Below the pieces are notes generated by a model. It was not told the DNA's origin. It did no database searches and saw nothing but the letters and a program-made list of their open reading frames with translations. The position numbers were made by a program, and so were the translations under genes. A stretch of DNA of 35,345 nucleotides. Origin: Verrucomicrobiota bacterium. Lineage in GTDB: Bacteria > Verrucomicrobiota > Verrucomicrobiia > Chthoniobacterales > UBA10450. Location of the stretch: NCBI GenBank assembly GCA_003218305.1, contig QHMY01000043.1, positions 1 to 35,345 on the forward strand. The letters are read 5' to 3'. Positions 20,898 to 32,602 of this stretch are shown here, one piece after another (the first letter of the stretch is position 1; every line of letters starts with the position of its first letter).

Positions 20898-22428
20898 AAA
20901 ATCAGGCGGAAAATGTTTTCTGGTCGGCGCGGGGCCGGGGGATCTCGGACTCGTCACTTTGCGGGCCCGGGAATGCATCGAGCAGGCTGAGGTGATTGTT
21001 TACGATTATCTCTCCAATGCCGAGATGTTGAAATGGGCGCAGGAGGGGGCCGAACTGATCTACGCCGGGAAGACGGCCGGTGCGCACACTTTGACCCAGG
21101 AAGAAATCAACCGGCTGCTGGTGGAAAAGACGGAAGCGGGGAAACAAGTCGTCCGGCTAAAAGGCGGCGATCCATTTGTGTTCGGGCGCGGCGGGGAGGA
21201 AGCCCAGGCGCTCGCAGCCGCCCGCCTCCGGTTCGAAGTGGTTCCGGGAATCACCTCGGCTATTGCCGGGCCCGCCTATGCCGGAATTCCGGTGACACAT
21301 CGCGGGAAGAATTCGCACGTCACCTTCTTCACCGGCCACGAAGAGCCGGAAAAATCCGGGACCGCGATCGACTTCGCAGCGCTTGCCAAACTCGGCGGCA
21401 CCCAGGTGATGTTGATGGGGGTCGAGCGCATCGAAGCGATCACGCGCGAAATGCTGGCCCACGGCGTCCGCGCCGACCTGCCGGTGGCTCTGATCCGATG
21501 GGCTACGACGGGACGGCAGGAAACGCTGGTGGGGAACGTGGGAAACATCGCGGAGCGCGTCGCGACAAGTAACTTTGGGGCCCCGGCGGTGGCTGTCTTC
21601 GGTGACGTCGTTACCTTGCGGGACGAGTTGAATTGGTTCGAGAATCGGCCGCTTTTCGGGAAACGAATTGTGGTCACCCGGGCGCGAACGCAGGCGAGCG
21701 CGTTGAGCGAACAACTACGCGCCCTGGGTGCTGATATCATTGAGCTGCCGACCATCCGGATCGAGCCGCCTAGCGACTTGCGGACGTTCGCAGAGCTGGT
21801 CCAGGACGCGCACTCTTACGATTGGATCGTCTTTACGAGCCCGAACGGGGTGACCGCGTTTTTCGAGATGTTCTACAAGCTCTACGACGACGCACGTGAG
21901 ATCGGCCCTGCGCGCATTGCCGCCATTGGTCCGGCCACGGCGCAGCGGATCAAGGATTTTCACCTGAAGGTTGATCTGCAACCGGAGGAATTCGTGGCGG
22001 AATCGGTGCTGCGTGAGTTCAACAAGCAGGGGGGAGTCGAAAATCTGCGCATTCTTCTCGCGCGAGCGGAAAAGGCGCGGGATTTGCTACCGAGGGAGCT
22101 CTCGGCTTTGGGGGCTATTGTGGACGAAGGATTTGCCTACCGCACGGTCCCCGAAACGCGTGACGACAGCGGCGCACGCCGACGGTTGTTGGAGGAGGGA
22201 GCGGATTTGATCACTTTTACCAGTTCATCAACGGTCGAGAATTTCATGGCGCTTAAGCTGCCGTGGCCGGAGAAAATGCAGGTCGCCAGCATCGGGCCGG
22301 TCACCTCCAACACGGCCCGTGAACACGGGCTGACCGTCGCCGTCGAAGCGCGCCGGCATGATATTCCGGGACTGGTCGCCGCCCTCCGCAAATTTTTTCT
22401 CGGCCCGGTCGAAGACAGGAGTCGATAA
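20887..22428 (+). CDS. cobA-hemD: Fused uroporphyrinogen-III C-methyltransferase / uroporphyrinogen-III synthase
   Basis: 513 residues. Residues 1-250 are a SUMT: FLVGAGPGDLGLVTLRA, VIVYDYLSN, VVRLKGGDPFVFGRGGEE, VPGITSAIAGPAYAGIPVTHR and the late LIRWATTGRQETLVG. Residues about 258-505 are HemD: GKRIVVTRARTQASALSEQL, DWIVFTSPNGVTAFFE, AAIGPATAQ and TFTSSSTVENF with ASIGPVTSNTAREHG. HemD closes hydroxymethylbilane to uroporphyrinogen III, and SUMT methylates it to precorrin-2 for siroheme or B12. Fusion keeps the branch point in one chain. The start lies inside the end of hemC, and the TAA overlaps the ATG of the GrpE-like gene (TAATG). Confidence 0.95.
   Translation: MADKKSGGKCFLVGAGPGDLGLVTLRARECIEQAEVIVYDYLSNAEMLKWAQEGAELIYAGKTAGAHTLTQEEINRLLVEKTEAGKQVVRLKGGDPFVFGRGGEEAQALAAARLRFEVVPGITSAIAGPAYAGIPVTHRGKNSHVTFFTGHEEPEKSGTAIDFAALAKLGGTQVMLMGVERIEAITREMLAHGVRADLPVALIRWATTGRQETLVGNVGNIAERVATSNFGAPAVAVFGDVVTLRDELNWFENRPLFGKRIVVTRARTQASALSEQLRALGADIIELPTIRIEPPSDLRTFAELVQDAHSYDWIVFTSPNGVTAFFEMFYKLYDDAREIGPARIAAIGPATAQRIKDFHLKVDLQPEEFVAESVLREFNKQGGVENLRILLARAEKARDLLPRELSALGAIVDEGFAYRTVPETRDDSGARRRLLEEGADLITFTSSSTVENFMALKLPWPEKMQVASIGPVTSNTAREHGLTVAVEARRHDIPGLVAALRKFFLGPVEDRSR
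22417..22421 (+). promoter_or_regulatory. Shine-Dalgarno AGGAG for the GrpE-like gene
   Basis: AGGAG ends 6 bases before the ATG at 22428 and lies within the end of cobA-hemD. It is one of the few clear ribosome sites in the window. It fixes the start and indicates that the GrpE-like gene has its own initiation as well as the TAATG overlap. Confidence 0.6.
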
Positions 22429-23126
22429 TGGAAATGGACGACGAATTTGCCTCCACCATGCAGCAACTGAGCGCCGAAGCTGAGAAGTCGCTTCCGGACG
22501 ACCCTTGGGAAGAGGGCAATCAGAGCGAACAATTCGCGCAGATTTTGCAGGAATTCAGCTCCCTGAATGGACGTTTGGAGCGCTTGGAGGAGACCGTGAC
22601 AAACCGCCTGGCCAAGGCCGAGGAAGCGAAACAAGCCGGCCTCGCGGAGGAATTGCGAAAGATGGATGAGCACATGGCTGCGCTTCGCAACACCGAAAGC
22701 GTAAACCAGAGGCTCTTCGATTCACTCCACGAGGAGCTGATCAAATATCGGGATAATTTTCTGCACGAATCGCTGCAGAAACCGTTCATTCGAGACTTGC
22801 TGATCCTGTTCGACGACTTGACCGGCCTGTCCTCACAGCTCCAGACAGCAGGAGATGGCGGAGAAAGTGTTCGCGGCAAGCTGGGGCATTGGCAGGATAA
22901 CCTCCAAAACGCCGTCCATTCTCTCACTGAGATCCTGCACCGGATGGAGGTTACCGAAATCGAGCAAAAGGACACAGTGGACCGCGCGTTTCACCGGGTG
23001 GTCAGCTACGAGCCCTCGGAGTTTGCGGAAGACGAGGGGCGGATTGTCATGCGCGTAAAACGCGGATTCCTCTGGCGGGATCAGGTTTTGCGGCCCGAAG
23101 AAGTGGTCGCGAAGCGCTTCGGCTAA
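22428..23126 (+). CDS. Divergent GrpE-like nucleotide exchange factor
   Basis: 232 residues. Residues 1-75 are charged and partly coiled coil (FSSLNGRLERLEETVTNRL). The middle has LFDSLHEELIKYRDNFLHESLQKPFIRDLLILFDDL, and the C-terminus ends SYEPSEFAEDEGRIVMRVKR then GFLWRDQVLRPEEVVAKRFG, which is the GrpE beta-domain signature (about 205-232). Family knowledge: GrpE dimers release ADP from Hsp70. The long C-terminal helix region differs from standard GrpE, and the partner is probably the short Hsp70 162 bases downstream. It is coupled by TAATG to the heme gene before it. A hairpin with a T-run overlaps its stop. Confidence 0.85.
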   Translation: MEMDDEFASTMQQLSAEAEKSLPDDPWEEGNQSEQFAQILQEFSSLNGRLERLEETVTNRLAKAEEAKQAGLAEELRKMDEHMAALRNTESVNQRLFDSLHEELIKYRDNFLHESLQKPFIRDLLILFDDLTGLSSQLQTAGDGGESVRGKLGHWQDNLQNAVHSLTEILHRMEVTEIEQKDTVDRAFHRVVSYEPSEFAEDEGRIVMRVKRGFLWRDQVLRPEEVVAKRFG

Positions 23127-23148
23127 CGGCGCGAGGAGGCGCCGTTTT
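23125..23148 (+). terminator. Possible terminator or attenuator after the GrpE-like gene
   Basis: AACGGCGC pairs with GCGCCGTT (8 bp, 6-base loop) and runs into TTTT. The stem begins inside the TAA stop. It is strong enough to lower read-through from the heme operon into the Hsp70 gene, which then would need its own promoter in the 160-base gap. I see no convincing -10/-35 pair there. Confidence 0.5.
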
Positions 23149-23288
23149 GAAAGCGCCGATTCCTCAGGAGAAAAGCAGGCCGCGAGTCTCGAAAAACCCG
23201 TGGAAATCGGGGTGCGCTGGGGCATGGAAATTGCAACTGCAGCAGGAGCGAAATTGTCTTCCATCAACCCTGAAGTTTACTTACACGC

Positions 23289-24851
23289 ATGACTCGTAGA
23301 AAAGCAATTGGAATCGACCTCGGCACCACGTTTTGCGCGGTCTCGCACATCGACATGTACGGGAAGCCGCAAATCATCCCGAATTCAGAGAGCGAACGCA
23401 TCACCCCGTCGGTGATTCTCTTCGATGGGGCGAGCGTGATCGTGGGCAGCGTGGCCAAGAACAATTGCGTGGCCGAAGCGGAAAAGATTGTCGATTTCGT
23501 GAAGCGCGAAATGGGCAAGCCGAAGGCGCAATTTCATCGCGAGTTCAACGGAAAGATCTATTCGGCCGAGGAATTATCGGCTTTGATCCTGCGGAAGCTC
23601 AAGAAGGACGCGGAAAAATATTTGAAGGAACCGGTAACCGATGCCGTGATCACGGTGCCCGCCTATTTCAACGACGCCGAGCGGACGGCCACCATTACCG
23701 CCGGCCAACTGGCCGGGCTCAATGTTCTGCAAATCATTAACGAACCGACGGCGGCTGCCGTGGCTTATGGCCTCGACAAACTGGACGAGGATCAGACCGT
23801 GTTCGTTTTCGATCTGGGCGGCGGCACGTTCGACGTCACCATCATGCGGATCCAGGAACATGGCATCGAGATGCTCGCCACCAACGGCGACCATCGCCTG
23901 GGCGGCAAGGATTGGGACGACGTGATCGTCAATCACGTCGCCGAGGAATTCGATCGCCACCACGGCGAGAATCCGCTGCTCGATCTCGAGAGCTATCAGG
24001 ATCTGCAAAGCCGAGCGCTAACCGCCAAAATCCAGCTCACGAGCCGGCCCCGGACCGCGATCGTCCATAATCACAACGGGAAAAGCGTGAAGGTCGAGCT
24101 GACCCGGGAAGAATTTGAGACCAAGACCCGGCATCTGGTCGAGAAGTGCAAGACGATTTGCGAGATGGTCCTGCAGGAAGCGAAACTGACCTGGAAAGAG
24201 ATGGACAAGGTTCTCCTCGTTGGGGGGATGACGCGGATGCCCATGGTCCGCAACATGATTTCTCAGCTTTCCTCCGTTCCCGTAGTGGACGATCTGAATC
24301 CGGATGAAGCCGTCGCGGTCGGCGCGGCGATTCAGGCGATTTTGTCGTTGCTCCGGGAAGAGGAAATCTCCGGAGTGAGGACGCTGCCGGAAGACACGCG
24401 GCAGCAATTCGCCTCGCGTGAAGGCGGCCTGGTCCAGGTGACCAACATCACCTCGCATACCCTCGGCGTGGTTCTATGGGATGAAGGGCACCTTGAGGAA
24501 TACGTTTACCCGATGATCCGGAAAATGACGCCCATGCCCGCCATGGCCAAGAATTCGTTCGGCACCGCCAGCGCGAATATGCCGCGCGCAACGGTGCGAA
24601 TTGTGGAAGGCGAGAGCACCTTGCCCGGGGAATGCACCCCGCTCGGCCTCTGCGACGTCGAACTGCCCGCTTTCTTGCCCAAAGGCTCTCCGGTGGAGCT
24701 TACCTACGAGTATAACGCCAATCAGGTTTTGGAAGTGTCGGTTAGTGCGAGCGGAAATCAGGCGAAGGTAACGATCGAACGCAATACGGGTCTCGCGCCG
24801 GATGAAGTCGAACGTGCCACGGCGAGCCTGGGCGCCATCGTGGTGACGTGA
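23289..24851 (+). CDS. Short Hsp70-family chaperone (DnaK-like, no C-terminal lid)
   Basis: 520 residues against about 640 for DnaK. The ATPase domain is complete: IDLGTT (9-14), VPAYF (123-127), NEPTAAAVAYG (151-161), DLGGGTFDVT (175-184) and LLVGGMTRMPMV. The usual hydrophobic interdomain linker (VLLLDV in DnaK) is replaced by a stretch reading GLVQVTN, and an extra segment of about 15 residues precedes it (GVRTLPEDTRQQFASRE). A beta-sandwich-like substrate domain follows to about 505, and the helical lid is missing. So ATP hydrolysis is probably kept, while allosteric coupling and substrate trapping may differ from DnaK. It lies between a GrpE-like gene and a J-like/SUMF1 fusion whose start is one base past its stop. 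Confidence 0.9.
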   Translation: MTRRKAIGIDLGTTFCAVSHIDMYGKPQIIPNSESERITPSVILFDGASVIVGSVAKNNCVAEAEKIVDFVKREMGKPKAQFHREFNGKIYSAEELSALILRKLKKDAEKYLKEPVTDAVITVPAYFNDAERTATITAGQLAGLNVLQIINEPTAAAVAYGLDKLDEDQTVFVFDLGGGTFDVTIMRIQEHGIEMLATNGDHRLGGKDWDDVIVNHVAEEFDRHHGENPLLDLESYQDLQSRALTAKIQLTSRPRTAIVHNHNGKSVKVELTREEFETKTRHLVEKCKTICEMVLQEAKLTWKEMDKVLLVGGMTRMPMVRNMISQLSSVPVVDDLNPDEAVAVGAAIQAILSLLREEEISGVRTLPEDTRQQFASREGGLVQVTNITSHTLGVVLWDEGHLEEYVYPMIRKMTPMPAMAKNSFGTASANMPRATVRIVEGESTLPGECTPLGLCDVELPAFLPKGSPVELTYEYNANQVLEVSVSASGNQAKVTIERNTGLAPDEVERATASLGAIVVT

Positions 24852-24852
24852 G

Positions 24853-26457
24853 ATGATGCAATACGAATTCCCGGTACCGCTTCCGGACGATCCCCAAAAG
24901 TGGGACGGCTGGAGCAAGTACAAGTCGCCGAATTATTACGAGCGGCTCTGTCTTGATCCCCGGGCAAATCCGACCAACGAACTCATCGAGGAGCATTGCC
25001 GGGAACTGATGCGGTGGTGGCAGAAGAAACTGCCGCTGAAGAATCAGCCGAGCAATCCTCTGGCGCAATTGCTTAGGCCGGGACTCGACGAGTCGTCGCG
25101 TTACCTGACCGAAGCTCGGGTCGAGCTGCTCGACCCCGCCCGCCGTCAAAAGATGGATTCCGAACTGGCGGCCCGGGCCAATGAGCAGGCGGTGATCGAA
25201 TTCCACAAATATCTGACTTTTGCCCTAGCCGACGGAACCCTGACCGCGGAGGAAGAGAAGAGCCTTTATAAATTTGGAGCCGAGAATGGGCTGACGGAGG
25301 AACAGATCGCCGGCTACATCGAAGCCGAATTGAAAGACAGCGGCGCGCATCGCGTGGTCCCAAATGCCGCGCCGACCGCGCCGCCACCTTCCTCGACCGA
25401 AGCCAGAAAGGAACCGCGCGCTCGCCGGCAAAGGTCCCTCGATCCCAGGGAGGACTTTCTTCGCATGCTTCGGCTAAGCGGCCTCGACAGTGACGGAATG
25501 GCAGACGAAACGCGGGATGCGTTCGTTAACATGGCGGAAAATCTCGGCATCGAGCCCGGCGACGCCGAAGACCTGGTCGATGAGTACCTCGACGAAGCCG
25601 ACAAGATGTCGGATCCGGACGCCCTGCCTCCGCCGCGCACGGCCGCGGTCGCCCCGGCTGCAGATGCAGGTTCCGAGGTCGAAGCGCCAGAAGCCTTGCC
25701 GGAGACCGAACGCAATCGCTTCGCGAACTATGCTAATTCAGTCGAGTGCCAGATGATCTTCGTGCCCACCGGCGAATTTCTCATGGGGAGCGAAGCCGCC
25801 GATGCCGCCCCGAACGAGCGGCCACTGAGCAAGGTGACATTGAGCAAGTTTTACATGTCGCGCTTCCCAATCACGAACGCCGAATACGAGCAGTTCGACC
25901 CCAGTCATGCGCGCAAACGGGCGCCGGGGGCCGGGGATCGTCATCCGGTCGTCTATGTCAGCAGCCTGGAGGCGATGAAATTTTGCCAATCGCTCTCGAC
26001 ACGGGAACGGAAGCGCTACCGGCTGCCCACGGAAGCGGAATGGGAATACGCGGCCCGCGGCACCGATGGCCGGAAATATCCGTGGGGTAATCACGATCGC
26101 CGCGGCGATCTGGCTAATTTCGCGGACCGCAATACGGTCTTCGCCTGGAGCGATCGCGAGATCGACGACGGCTATCCGGAGAGCTCGCCGGTGGGAGCTT
26201 TCCCGTATGGGGCAAGCCCGTTTGGTTTGGAAGACATGGCGGGAAATGTTTGGGAGTGGTGCCTGGATTTTCTGGACGCGTACCGGGCAACCCCGAAAAT
26301 TAATCCTCGAGGTCTCCCAAACGGAATTAAGCGGGTCTATCGCGGGGGGAGCTGGAAGTCGCGCTTCCACAGTTTGCGGGCGACGGCTCGCGGCTCCAAC
26401 ATGCCGAGCTATTCGTGCAACGATCTCGGGTTCCGAATCGTTTGCGAATGCGATTAG
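24853..26457 (+). CDS. J-like / TerB-like / SUMF1-domain fusion protein
   Basis: 534 residues. Residues about 28-97 have the frame of a J-domain (NYYERLCLDPRAN at the start, YLTEARVELLDPARRQKMD at the end), but the HPD tripeptide that triggers Hsp70 is absent (KKLPLKNQP in its place). Residues about 115-160 (ALADGTLTAEEEKSLYKFG) and 197-250 (SDGMADETRDAFVNMAENLG) look like two TerB/calponin-type helical units. After a Pro/Ala linker, residues 296-534 form a SUMF1/FGE-type domain: PTGEFLMGSEA, RLPTEAEWEYAARG, MAGNVWEWC, GGSW and GFRIV. The two Cys of true formylglycine-generating enzymes (after GGSY in the human protein) are Ser and Leu here, so it is not an active FGE by that mechanism. The start is one base past the Hsp70 stop, so coupled translation is expected. 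Possible role: co-chaperone or scaffold of the short Hsp70 (inference). Confidence 0.85.
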   Translation: MMQYEFPVPLPDDPQKWDGWSKYKSPNYYERLCLDPRANPTNELIEEHCRELMRWWQKKLPLKNQPSNPLAQLLRPGLDESSRYLTEARVELLDPARRQKMDSELAARANEQAVIEFHKYLTFALADGTLTAEEEKSLYKFGAENGLTEEQIAGYIEAELKDSGAHRVVPNAAPTAPPPSSTEARKEPRARRQRSLDPREDFLRMLRLSGLDSDGMADETRDAFVNMAENLGIEPGDAEDLVDEYLDEADKMSDPDALPPPRTAAVAPAADAGSEVEAPEALPETERNRFANYANSVECQMIFVPTGEFLMGSEAADAAPNERPLSKVTLSKFYMSRFPITNAEYEQFDPSHARKRAPGAGDRHPVVYVSSLEAMKFCQSLSTRERKRYRLPTEAEWEYAARGTDGRKYPWGNHDRRGDLANFADRNTVFAWSDREIDDGYPESSPVGAFPYGASPFGLEDMAGNVWEWCLDFLDAYRATPKINPRGLPNGIKRVYRGGSWKSRFHSLRATARGSNMPSYSCNDLGFRIVCECD

Positions 26458-30158: not shown

Positions 30159-31181
30159 TTACGCCTTCGGAGCCGGGGTCGCTGCCGGCGTTTGGTCGCC
30201 GGGCTCGTCTTCTTCCTCCGGCCAATCGTCGTCGGTCGCCTTCCAAGTCTTGTCCGGATTATAGCGCTCCATGGTTGCAAACTCTTTCAGCGTCTCCGGA
30301 CCAAGATCCTTTTCGTAGACGACGCCCTCAGGGCCTACGATGAAGCTCTTGACGCCGGTCACCTGGTGTTCCGCCGGCGAAGCGACCAGGGCGAATCCGC
30401 CGAGCATCGCGCCGTTGATGACGAAGTCCATCTCGCCCATCGGCGCGGTCGGGCCCTGGCCTTTCAACACTTTGAAATAATACCCGTGATAAGGCTCGGT
30501 CTTGTCGGAGTAACCCTGTTCGATTGCTTTCGCGATCGTGTCGCCGACCGGTCCGCCCCACGTACCGTCAGCGTTTTGCCAGGCGAGGCCATCCTTCTTT
30601 CCGGGGGTGCTGATGATGCGCTGGGCGTATTGGTTCACCTTCGAATCTTCATGCTTCTCCTGGGCGTACTCATGCTGCGCCTCCACGAAACCGCGGCAAA
30701 TCGTGATGGCATCGAGTTCGTTGGCGCCGATGCGGCGGTTCAGGATTTCTTCCCGGCCCAGGTTGGTATCAAACGACCACTTTCCCTTGTCTTTGACCAA
30801 GGGGATCGGCAAGGCCGCCTCGTCCGTTCCAAAGGTGATGGCAGCGCGATTGGGATTGTCCACGAACGGAACGATCGCGTTTTTCTCCTTGGCCTTGGCC
30901 GCGAACTTCATGGCGTTTTGTTTGTCCATGACCGGATCCTCCGAGTTGATAATGTCCTCGCTATCCGGGCCCAGGATCTCTTTTAGCGCAGCGACGTCGA
31001 AGGTTTCCGCCGCTTGCACCAGCGAATCGAGGGCCTTTTTCGGATCGTCGAATTGCTTCCGATTGCCCGGATCAGCCGCTTTCTCTTCCGTTGGGGGAGC
31101 GGCCTGAACCGCCAGTGTTACGCAGCCAGCGAGAGTGACTAAAGCCAGAAGCTGCTTTGAAGTTGAGATGTTCAGTTTCAT
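30159..31181 (-). CDS. DUF2950 family exported protein
   Basis: 340 residues. An N-terminal signal peptide (LLALVTLAGCVTLAVQA) is followed by FDDPKKALDSLVQAAETFDVAALKEILGPD, IPLVKDKGKWSFDTNLGREEILNRRIGANEL, the central YHGYYFKVLKGQGP and a C-terminal VVYEKDLGPETLKEFATMERYNPD then KTW, all typical of DUF2950. An acidic Pro/Ala-rich tail ends the protein. Function unknown. DUF2950 genes are commonly found next to DUF3300, as here, 23 bases after the DUF3300 stop. GGAGG (31190-31194 on the complement) sits 8 bases before the start. Confidence 0.92.
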   Translation of the reverse strand: MKLNISTSKQLLALVTLAGCVTLAVQAAPPTEEKAADPGNRKQFDDPKKALDSLVQAAETFDVAALKEILGPDSEDIINSEDPVMDKQNAMKFAAKAKEKNAIVPFVDNPNRAAITFGTDEAALPIPLVKDKGKWSFDTNLGREEILNRRIGANELDAITICRGFVEAQHEYAQEKHEDSKVNQYAQRIISTPGKKDGLAWQNADGTWGGPVGDTIAKAIEQGYSDKTEPYHGYYFKVLKGQGPTAPMGEMDFVINGAMLGGFALVASPAEHQVTGVKSFIVGPEGVVYEKDLGPETLKEFATMERYNPDKTWKATDDDWPEEEDEPGDQTPAATPAPKA

Positions 31182-31204
31182 TTCGTTTTCCTCCGTTTAA
31201 GTGA

Positions 31205-32602
31205 TTATCTCCGGCGTCCTCCGCCGCGCCCGCCGCCCCCGCCACGGAAGCCGCCGCCTCCTCCTCCTCCGCGGCTAAATCCACCGCCTCCCATGCTACG
31301 ATTCCCTCTGGAGCTGCTGGCTCCCACATTCCGGCCGCTGCTGCCGCCGAAGCTGCCGCCGCTATAGGAACTGCGACTGCTGCTGGGGCGGGACGTGTTC
31401 GCCCGCGAGTTGCTGCCTCCCCGAGAACCATAATTTCCGGCATTCGATGTCTTGCGGTTGCCGATGGAGTTCGAGCTCCGTTTGGCGCCACCGGCGGGTT
31501 TGGTGCTGGGCCGGTTAACATTGCCGCCGCCGGGCTTTGTGCTCGGTCGGTTGACGTTGCCGCCCCCGGGCCTGTTGCTTGGCAGTGTGCTCGGGCGGTT
31601 GCCTCCGCCGGGCCGGTTGCCTCCGCCGGGTCGGTTGCCTCCGCCGGGCCGGTTATTGCCGGGGCTGCGGCCGCCGAATTTGTCCGCGGTTCTGCGATCT
31701 CCGTAAGGAGCATTGCCCCGATGTTCGGGACGATGCTGCCATCTATTCCCGCCCTGACCGCGGTTAATATTGTTCCGGTTAAAATTGTTGTTTCGATTGA
31801 TATTAATGTCGCCGCCGTTCCAATCGCAGTCACCCCACCAACCACCGATAATGCCCGCGCCAATTACGATGCCCGCACCCCAGACGAGCCCCATTCCCGG
31901 GTAGTAGCCGGGGTACGAATAGGGGTAGTAAGGATAATAAGGGGACGGACCGTACATATATTCGGGATCGTACGACGGCACATACACGACCTCGGGTTTC
32001 GCTTGCTCGACCACGATGACCTCTTTCCCACCTCCGGTCGTCTTGGTTGACACTATTTGCTCCGCGCTGGTTTTGAATGTGCCTTTGGTTTGCGCCTTGC
32101 CCCGCATGCGCTGGACCGCGTCCATCACATCGGTTTGCTGGGCGAGAAAGGCGTTCCCGAGGTTGGCTGTCCATTGGATGTTTTCGGCCAGTCGCTTCAA
32201 CAAGTCGGGATAAGCGACCAATGATTGGATACTCGAATCCCACGGCTGCTTCGCCACCGCGTCGCCCAGGGCCTTATCCTTCAGGTTTGGATTCCGCTCC
32301 ATCCATTGCTGGAGTTGAATGATCTCGAGCGGGTAGGTGGAGGCGGCCAGCGTCATGGCCAGCAGGTGGTCGGAGTAAAGCGCGATCGGCGCCACGAGCG
32401 CATCGAGCTGATCCTTCGAAATCATCGGCGCGTCGGGTTGAGGCGTCGAGGTCGTCATGACCTGCGATTGAGCCGCGGGAGCCGGAGTCTGGGCGAGGAC
32501 CATTGTCTGGCCACTCGCGAGCAGGATGCCGACGCCGAGGATCGTGAGTGCGCGCTCAATGCGAGCGGCGCGAAATTGGATTGAAGAGTGCCGTAACTTC
32601 AT
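31205..32602 (-). CDS. DUF3300 family exported protein with a Gly/Asn/Arg-rich tail
   Basis: 465 residues. A signal peptide (ALTILGVGILLASGQTMVLAQ) is followed by the DUF3300 domain: DQLDALVAPIALYSDHLLAM, STYPLEIIQLQQWMERNP, AKQPWDSSIQSLVAYPDLL and VVYVPSYDPEYMYG. A Tyr/Pro-rich stretch leads to one hydrophobic glycine-rich segment (GLVWGAGIVIGAGIIGGWWG). From about residue 265 to the end it is low complexity: Asn/Arg blocks, repeated NRPGGG units, NVNRPSTKPGGG units and a Ser/Gly/Arg tail ending in GGGRGGGRRR. Function unknown, likely envelope-associated. It is the first gene of a pair with DUF2950. Confidence 0.9.
   Translation of the reverse strand: MKLRHSSIQFRAARIERALTILGVGILLASGQTMVLAQTPAPAAQSQVMTTSTPQPDAPMISKDQLDALVAPIALYSDHLLAMTLAASTYPLEIIQLQQWMERNPNLKDKALGDAVAKQPWDSSIQSLVAYPDLLKRLAENIQWTANLGNAFLAQQTDVMDAVQRMRGKAQTKGTFKTSAEQIVSTKTTGGGKEVIVVEQAKPEVVYVPSYDPEYMYGPSPYYPYYPYSYPGYYPGMGLVWGAGIVIGAGIIGGWWGDCDWNGGDININRNNNFNRNNINRGQGGNRWQHRPEHRGNAPYGDRRTADKFGGRSPGNNRPGGGNRPGGGNRPGGGNRPSTLPSNRPGGGNVNRPSTKPGGGNVNRPSTKPAGGAKRSSNSIGNRKTSNAGNYGSRGGSNSRANTSRPSSSRSSYSGGSFGGSSGRNVGASSSRGNRSMGGGGFSRGGGGGGGFRGGGGGRGGGRRR
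31596..31649 (-). repeat. Three 18-bp tandem units in the DUF3300 gene
   Basis: The unit CGGTTGCCTCCGCCGGGC is repeated three times with one base changed, encoding NRPGGG units. Two longer related units (encoding GGGNVNRPSTKP) lie next to it at about 31505-31575. Such tracts change length by slippage. Confidence 0.8.

Follow-up and report, generated by a model that had tools for sequence, protein, structure and literature searches.

The window analysed is a stretch of 35,345 nucleotides of verrucomicrobial DNA. It carries a row of genes, hemX-hemA-hemC-cobA/hemD, that precedes three genes encoding a GrpE-like protein of 232 aa (positions 22428..23126), a lidless Hsp70 of 520 aa (positions 23289..24851) and a J-like/TerB-like/SUMF1 fusion protein of 534 aa (positions 24853..26457). 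The three genes, and the features within them described below, are on the + strand. The names hemA and cobA/hemD are from Pfam; hemX and hemC were named by reading. The hemD stop codon and the ATG of the GrpE-like gene share one base (TAATG), and one base separates the Hsp70 gene from the fusion gene. A previous sequence-only reading had described three adjacent genes with altered parts of an Hsp70 machine; this is confirmed, and the coordinates are unchanged. No heat-shock CIRCE element was detected in the window with up to 3 mismatches allowed. At positions 30159-32602 of the window, neighboring DUF2950 and DUF3300 genes are present.

The GrpE-like protein gives a Pfam GrpE score of 50.4 bits (cut-off 25.8). 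Its best score to the NCBIfam GrpE equivalog is 33.4, vs a cut-off of 176, and a sequence search of the protein against solved structures found no GrpE. Of 31 relative loci for which upstream DNA is available, 29 have its gene next to that of the Hsp70 and two, L076 and L109, lack it there. The protein probably has nucleotide exchange activity.

The Hsp70 has a Pfam HSP70 score of 414.4 bits (cut-off 20.6). It misses the cut-offs of the DnaK equivalogs (TIGR02350, 415.8 vs 822.55; NF001413, 421.6 vs 648) and of the HscA equivalog (TIGR01991, 334 vs 708.55). An alignment of trio Hsp70s was made from 28 of the 67 loci with a trio Hsp70 match, plus the window. The ATPase residues D8, K70, E171 and T199 are intact in all 29 sequences, and the trio Hsp70 is predicted from its sequence to be an active ATPase. 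The interdomain linker region (residues 352-391, positions 24342..24461) contains an insertion and a replacement, with LVQVTNITSHTLGV starting at residue 381; this altered region is flexible. The VLLLD linker is present in 30/30 canonical DnaKs and absent from the trio Hsp70s, where the pattern in an ungapped alignment is (I/V/M)(Q/K/R/E)V(T/R/I/S)(N/D) (n = 29).

A beta-sandwich substrate-binding domain (SBD) follows at residues 392-500 (positions 24462..24788), with residues F426 and P419 conserved in 29/29 trio sequences. There is no alpha-helical lid after it: one short helix is present, then the protein ends, and the chain length is 520-533 aa in all 29 sequences. DnaK, HscA and HscC have an alpha-helical lid (PMC8215388). 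Residues W397, E404, Y405 and V406 of the SBD are also invariant in the 29 sequences. The SBD-beta stretch that holds residues 397-406 (positions 24477-24506) is longer than its counterpart in canonical DnaK, and these residues are a possible client or partner site.

The fusion protein was aligned from 38 of the 71 loci with a fusion match, plus the window. In this and the Hsp70 alignment, rows that were cut by a contig end, frameshifted, from duplicate contigs or near-identical were excluded (e.g. L018, L032, L033 and L039 for the fusion; also L040, L078, L080, L087 and L088). Some genomes are represented both among loci L035-L068 and among the G loci, and L088, on the same contig as L067, is outside the 31 loci. 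The N-terminal domain (residues 25-105, positions 24925..25167) was found to have the J fold. The hhalign value of this domain to J-domains is only 41.6% and Foldseek E-values are about 1. Pfam gives no family for the J-like domain of the window protein at E up to 1, and Pfam DnaJ is absent from the 25 families listed, of 28, over the 39 fusion rows. Matches of 12 of the 39 N-terminal rows to PF22451 (siroheme decarboxylase-like HTH), at best with E = 0.012, were read as noise.

The place of the HPD loop is taken by the near-invariant WWQKKLPLKNQPSNP (positions 25015..25059), in which HPD aligns to LPL at residues 60-62. The HPD is present in 0/39 fusions, as had been read from the window protein by itself; the aligned residues are LPL in 37 and LRL in 2. 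Two helical units follow, the first at positions 25168..25347, where the model displays helices, and the second at positions 25444..25611. The PADLOC family PDC-S48 weakly matches fusion residues 97-165 (positions 25141-25347; E = 1.5e-5, 22 bits). This match gives a faint hint of TerB identity, and "TerB-like" is used here tentatively for both units. The other parts of the name given in the sequence-only reading, J-like without HPD and SUMF1, stand.

The SUMF1/FGE-sulfatase domain at positions 25750..26442 scores 180 bits in Pfam (cut-off 23.3). It lacks the catalytic cysteines of FGE, which we take to be the pair after GGS: in the segment GGSW(K/R)SR neither active-site position is Cys in 15/15 fusions. 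A Cys is found further on after this segment in three of the 15. All 15 fusions share three invariant SUMF1-domain cysteines, at fusion residues 378, 470 and 531.

The trio is not the sole Hsp70 set of its genome (3.6 Mb, 285 contigs, 89% complete). Hsp70 matches comprise a canonical DnaK with 887 bits on contig C159, a full-length second Hsp70 with 605 bits on C142, the trio Hsp70 with 405 bits, and an additional weak match with 44 bits. Canonical GrpE and DnaJ genes are together on C41. The trio is thus an accessory set, as was proposed from the window, and the possibility raised at the time that it holds the only Hsp70 of the genome is false. In a tree of 75 Hsp70s (356 columns of the nucleotide-binding domain, NBD) the 29 trio Hsp70s form one clade (support 1.0), whose stem is 0.77 substitutions per site long. 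Trio Hsp70s of seven genomes have 67-91% identity to the window Hsp70, and the canonical DnaKs of those genomes have 79-96% identity to the DnaK of the window's genome. The trio Hsp70 therefore evolves faster than DnaK, yet is well constrained. A third Hsp70 in the same genome, of about 592 aa and with Arg at position 167, is seen at positions 3847-5622 of L002 / L070, and Hsp70s with similar scores recur across the order.

The distribution of the set was determined in 118 genomes of the order with at least 90% completeness; the window's own genome was kept as well. The fusion N-terminal profile matches 48 of the 118, in 20 of 37 genera and five families, and the Hsp70 C-terminal profile matches exactly the same 48. 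In all 48 the J-like domain and the lidless Hsp70 are on one contig and one strand and are adjacent, with 24-165 bases between the matched cores. When 237 genomes of the class were scanned, the two profiles again matched one identical set, of 14 genomes; four more weakly pass the Hsp70 profile threshold (E about 1e-15), and these have long Hsp70s of 643-649 aa. G061, from an order with one genome in the sample, is the sole match of the 14 outside the order; it carries the trio, and no hem gene is in the 16 kb of its DNA examined. A wider spread of the J-like domain was rejected: 288 genomes of the phylum gave 4 matches, all in the order, one of them the window's own genome. The set is absent in 70 of the 118 genomes, including eight listed genomes of genus g5; it is thus dispensable and not essential to the order. 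Where it is present the neighborhood is conserved, both in the adjacency of Hsp70 and fusion (48/48) and in that of the GrpE-like gene noted above, and conservation in relatives was what the sequence-only reading had depended on. The predicted pairing of Hsp70 and fusion is well supported by genomics, i.e. by this adjacency and co-occurrence together with the matched one-clade changes described below.

Four genomes that hold the Hsp70-fusion pair also have a second J-like/SUMF1 fusion on another contig, with no neighboring Hsp70 (L071, 2637-4256; L072, 8321-9934; L073, 6829-8415; L074, 6341-7975). The motif is kept in these second fusions. The open reading frames around those of L072 and L073, read by eye, show no consistent partner, and no Hsp70 was noticed. 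One motor may serve two adaptors in these four genomes.

The place of the trio in the hemA-hemC-hemD row could point to tetrapyrrole (haem) enzymes as the clients for which the chaperone is reserved, and hemD is upstream in 28 of the 31 relative loci with upstream DNA. However, the Hsp70-fusion pair is found without hemD in the examined DNA of L076, L077 and L108, and inherited gene order suffices as an explanation. A dedication to haem enzymes therefore appears highly improbable. A biological conflict (defence) system is an even fainter prospect. It could be envisaged by analogy with neighborhoods of HSP70, GrpE and DnaJ-fusion genes, and with FGS effectors, that are described in eLife 2020;9:e52696 (PMC7159879), and the PADLOC matches fit such a system. 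These matches are weak (the best is that to PDC-S48), and the housekeeping-gene synteny in most loci and the 67-91% Hsp70 identity over seven genome pairs are unlike a fast-turning defence locus.

Comparison of the J-like domain and the trio Hsp70 was made at the residues by which J-domains contact DnaK. For the linker, E206, E217, P419, D477 and D481, the E. coli numbering used is a presumed one, from a count along the sequence. In the published DnaJ:DnaK contact, J-domain residues R22, K26, R27, K48 and K51 contact DnaK E206, D211, E217 and D477, H33 contacts the L391 backbone, P34 contacts P419, and D35 contacts R167 and Q378 (PMC8215388). The D35N change suppresses DnaK R167A (PMC13012618).

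Both sides of the D35-R167 contact are changed in the trio. The D35 position is Leu in 39/39 fusions. The R167 position, which is Q148 in the window Hsp70 (codon at 23730..23732), holds Gln in 28 of the 29 trio Hsp70s and Ser in the remaining one. The Arg is also lost in 35/35 readable of 36 further loci (Q32, S2, N1, one unread), whose genomes overlap in part with those of the alignment. By comparison, 30 canonical DnaKs and 16 other Hsp70s have Arg here, and a control set shows it in 49/49 readable of 50 other Hsp70 loci.

The charged contacts display a similar two-sided change. In the 39 fusions R22 is replaced by Glu 36 times and by Gln three times, and the R27 position is Glu in 25. The E206 position shows a charge reversal (R187 in the window Hsp70, codon at 23847..23849): it is Arg in 26, Lys in 1, Gln in 1 and Glu in 1 of the trio Hsp70s, vs E29, D1 in canonical DnaKs. 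The D211 position, approximate in the shorter local hairpin, is neutral in 26/29, and E217 remains Glu in only 11/29. The net charge of helix II (12 residues) is +2 to +6 in 23 J-domains vs 0 or -1 in the 39 fusions; these J-domains were selected among 30 loci with a pattern in which HPD was required, and are a control for charge and not for HPD. The NBD hairpin has a net charge of -3 or -2 in the norm vs -1 to +1 in the trio.

Other contact residues are kept. A Pro like P34 is found in 37/39 fusions and K26 is represented by Arg in 35/39; in the trio Hsp70s P419 is present in 29/29, Q378 in 28/29 and an acid (Glu) at the D477 position in 20/29. Part of the old electrostatics thus survives at E217, D477 and K26. 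The conserved positions (Pro, P419, Q378, K26 and the D477 acid) indicate that the docking place is likely the old one, while the signalling contacts differ. The matched changes come from one clade, represent one inheritance and are statistically non-independent; as read from the alignments, they fit co-evolution. The alterations noted in the sequence-only reading thus go beyond simple divergence: the J-like protein and the Hsp70 depart from the norm at matching contact residues.

These changes bear on two explanations in which the J-like domain does not trigger the Hsp70. The fusion could be an adaptor only, with a canonical HPD-bearing DnaJ driving the lidless Hsp70, in analogy to Pam16 with Pam18. 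The genome has canonical J-proteins and the HPD-less Pam16 is a precedent (PMC9695410), but nearly all trio Hsp70s have lost R167 and E206, two residues with which canonical J-domains make contact, and we regard this explanation as quite improbable. Alternatively, the Hsp70 may not be a J-stimulated chaperone and may sit in a stable complex in its ATP-bound form, as a static scaffold or switch to which the J-like domain provides only a tether, similar to Ssz1 with Zuo1, whose binding is described (PMC8476630). The loss of both HPD and R167, the flexible and altered linker region and the absent lid would agree with this. Against it are the ATPase residues, intact in 29/29, the SBD residues F426 and P419, kept in 29/29, and the GrpE-like gene, kept in 29/31 loci, for which a static scaffold would have no need. 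A scaffold appears rather unlikely, although that the J-like domain might only tether also counts against the explanation preferred here.

The preferred explanation, towards which the evidence tips by a modest measure, is an accessory Hsp70 machine that is insulated from DnaK/DnaJ, in which the HPD-less J-fold adaptor recruits the Hsp70 to a client bound by SUMF1. The J-fold domain would dock near the usual site on the NBD, linker and SBD-beta, by a contact without HPD, net positive helix II, Arg167, net acidic hairpin and leucine linker. The WWQKKLPLKNQPSNP loop would replace the HPD loop as both contact and trigger. The SUMF1 head, without the FGE cysteines, and the helical units would bind the client, so that the Hsp70 would act only on the cargo of the fusion. 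With no lid, the grip of the Hsp70 should be weak and brief, which fits remodelling or assembly of one or a few folded clients. The GrpE-like protein would accelerate nucleotide exchange and reset the Hsp70. Against this explanation weigh the one-clade origin of the matched changes, the two of 31 loci without the GrpE-like gene, the surviving part of the electrostatics, the weak J-domain matches of the fusion and the dispensability of the set.

A more specific proposal is that the trio represents an orthogonal HPD-less Hsp70:J pair. HPD/Arg167, the helix II/hairpin charges and the leucine linker would have been replaced together, WWQKKLPLKNQPSNP would trigger hydrolysis or coupling otherwise, and the lidless Hsp70 would serve more than one SUMF1-headed adaptor. 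This is a tentative proposal, to which we assign somewhat less than an even chance.

DjlB and DjlC, the J-proteins of HscC in E. coli, keep the HPD, unlike the fusion. HscC with DjlB/DjlC otherwise resembles the trio, as a specialised accessory Hsp70 that has J-proteins encoded nearby and an SBD-beta insertion; but HscC has retained a lid, from which nine residues are deleted, and is not expected to use GrpE (PMC8215388), whereas the trio has no lid and has a GrpE-like gene. HscA/HscB is likewise a dedicated Hsp70:J pair with a narrow task (PMC8215388); the trio differs from it in the HscA equivalog score (334 vs 708.55) and in a J partner that lacks HPD. Pam16 shares a J-like domain without HPD, but it pairs with the HPD-bearing Pam18 in a mitochondrial motor (PMC9695410), while in the trio the adjacent Hsp70 is itself changed at matching residues. 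In Ssz1-Zuo1 (RAC) an atypical Hsp70 is also partnered with a J-protein; however, the Zuo1 J-domain stimulates another Hsp70, Ssb (PMC8476630). The GAP1-N2 GTPase conflict systems also bring HSP70, GrpE and DnaJ-fusion genes together. They differ in being described mostly from actinobacteria/firmicutes and in being built around a GTPase, with DnaJ fused to FNIII, and no SUMF1-J fusion appears in the part of the source consulted (PMC7159879). A Pfam scan of 16 window proteins gave no GTPase family.

Accessory Hsp70:J pairs (HscA/HscB, HscC/DjlB/DjlC) and HPD-less J-like proteins (Pam16) are already known. What is new here, at the level of aligned residues, is a J:Hsp70 contact that is changed on both sides. 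In the open-access literature, covered mostly as titles and abstracts, no description was found of this gene trio or of a J-like/SUMF1 fusion with a matched lidless Hsp70. HPD-Arg167 lies at the core of the accepted trigger of Hsp70 by J-proteins. With both halves of the contact gone and the ATPase residues intact, the trio poses the question of whether HPD is needed. It suggests a private, separately wired second folding machine in a group of soil bacteria, and would provide a ready-made insulated Hsp70 pair. The SUMF1/C-type-lectin fold gains a possible role as the client-binding head of a chaperone.

A different type of Hsp70 was seen in G042, G051, G205, G232, G237 and G251, members of the order outside the 48 trio-positive genomes. 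These Hsp70s have about 550-626 aa, and the Pfam match breaks off at model positions of about 231-297, which looks like a replacement of this portion of the NBD.
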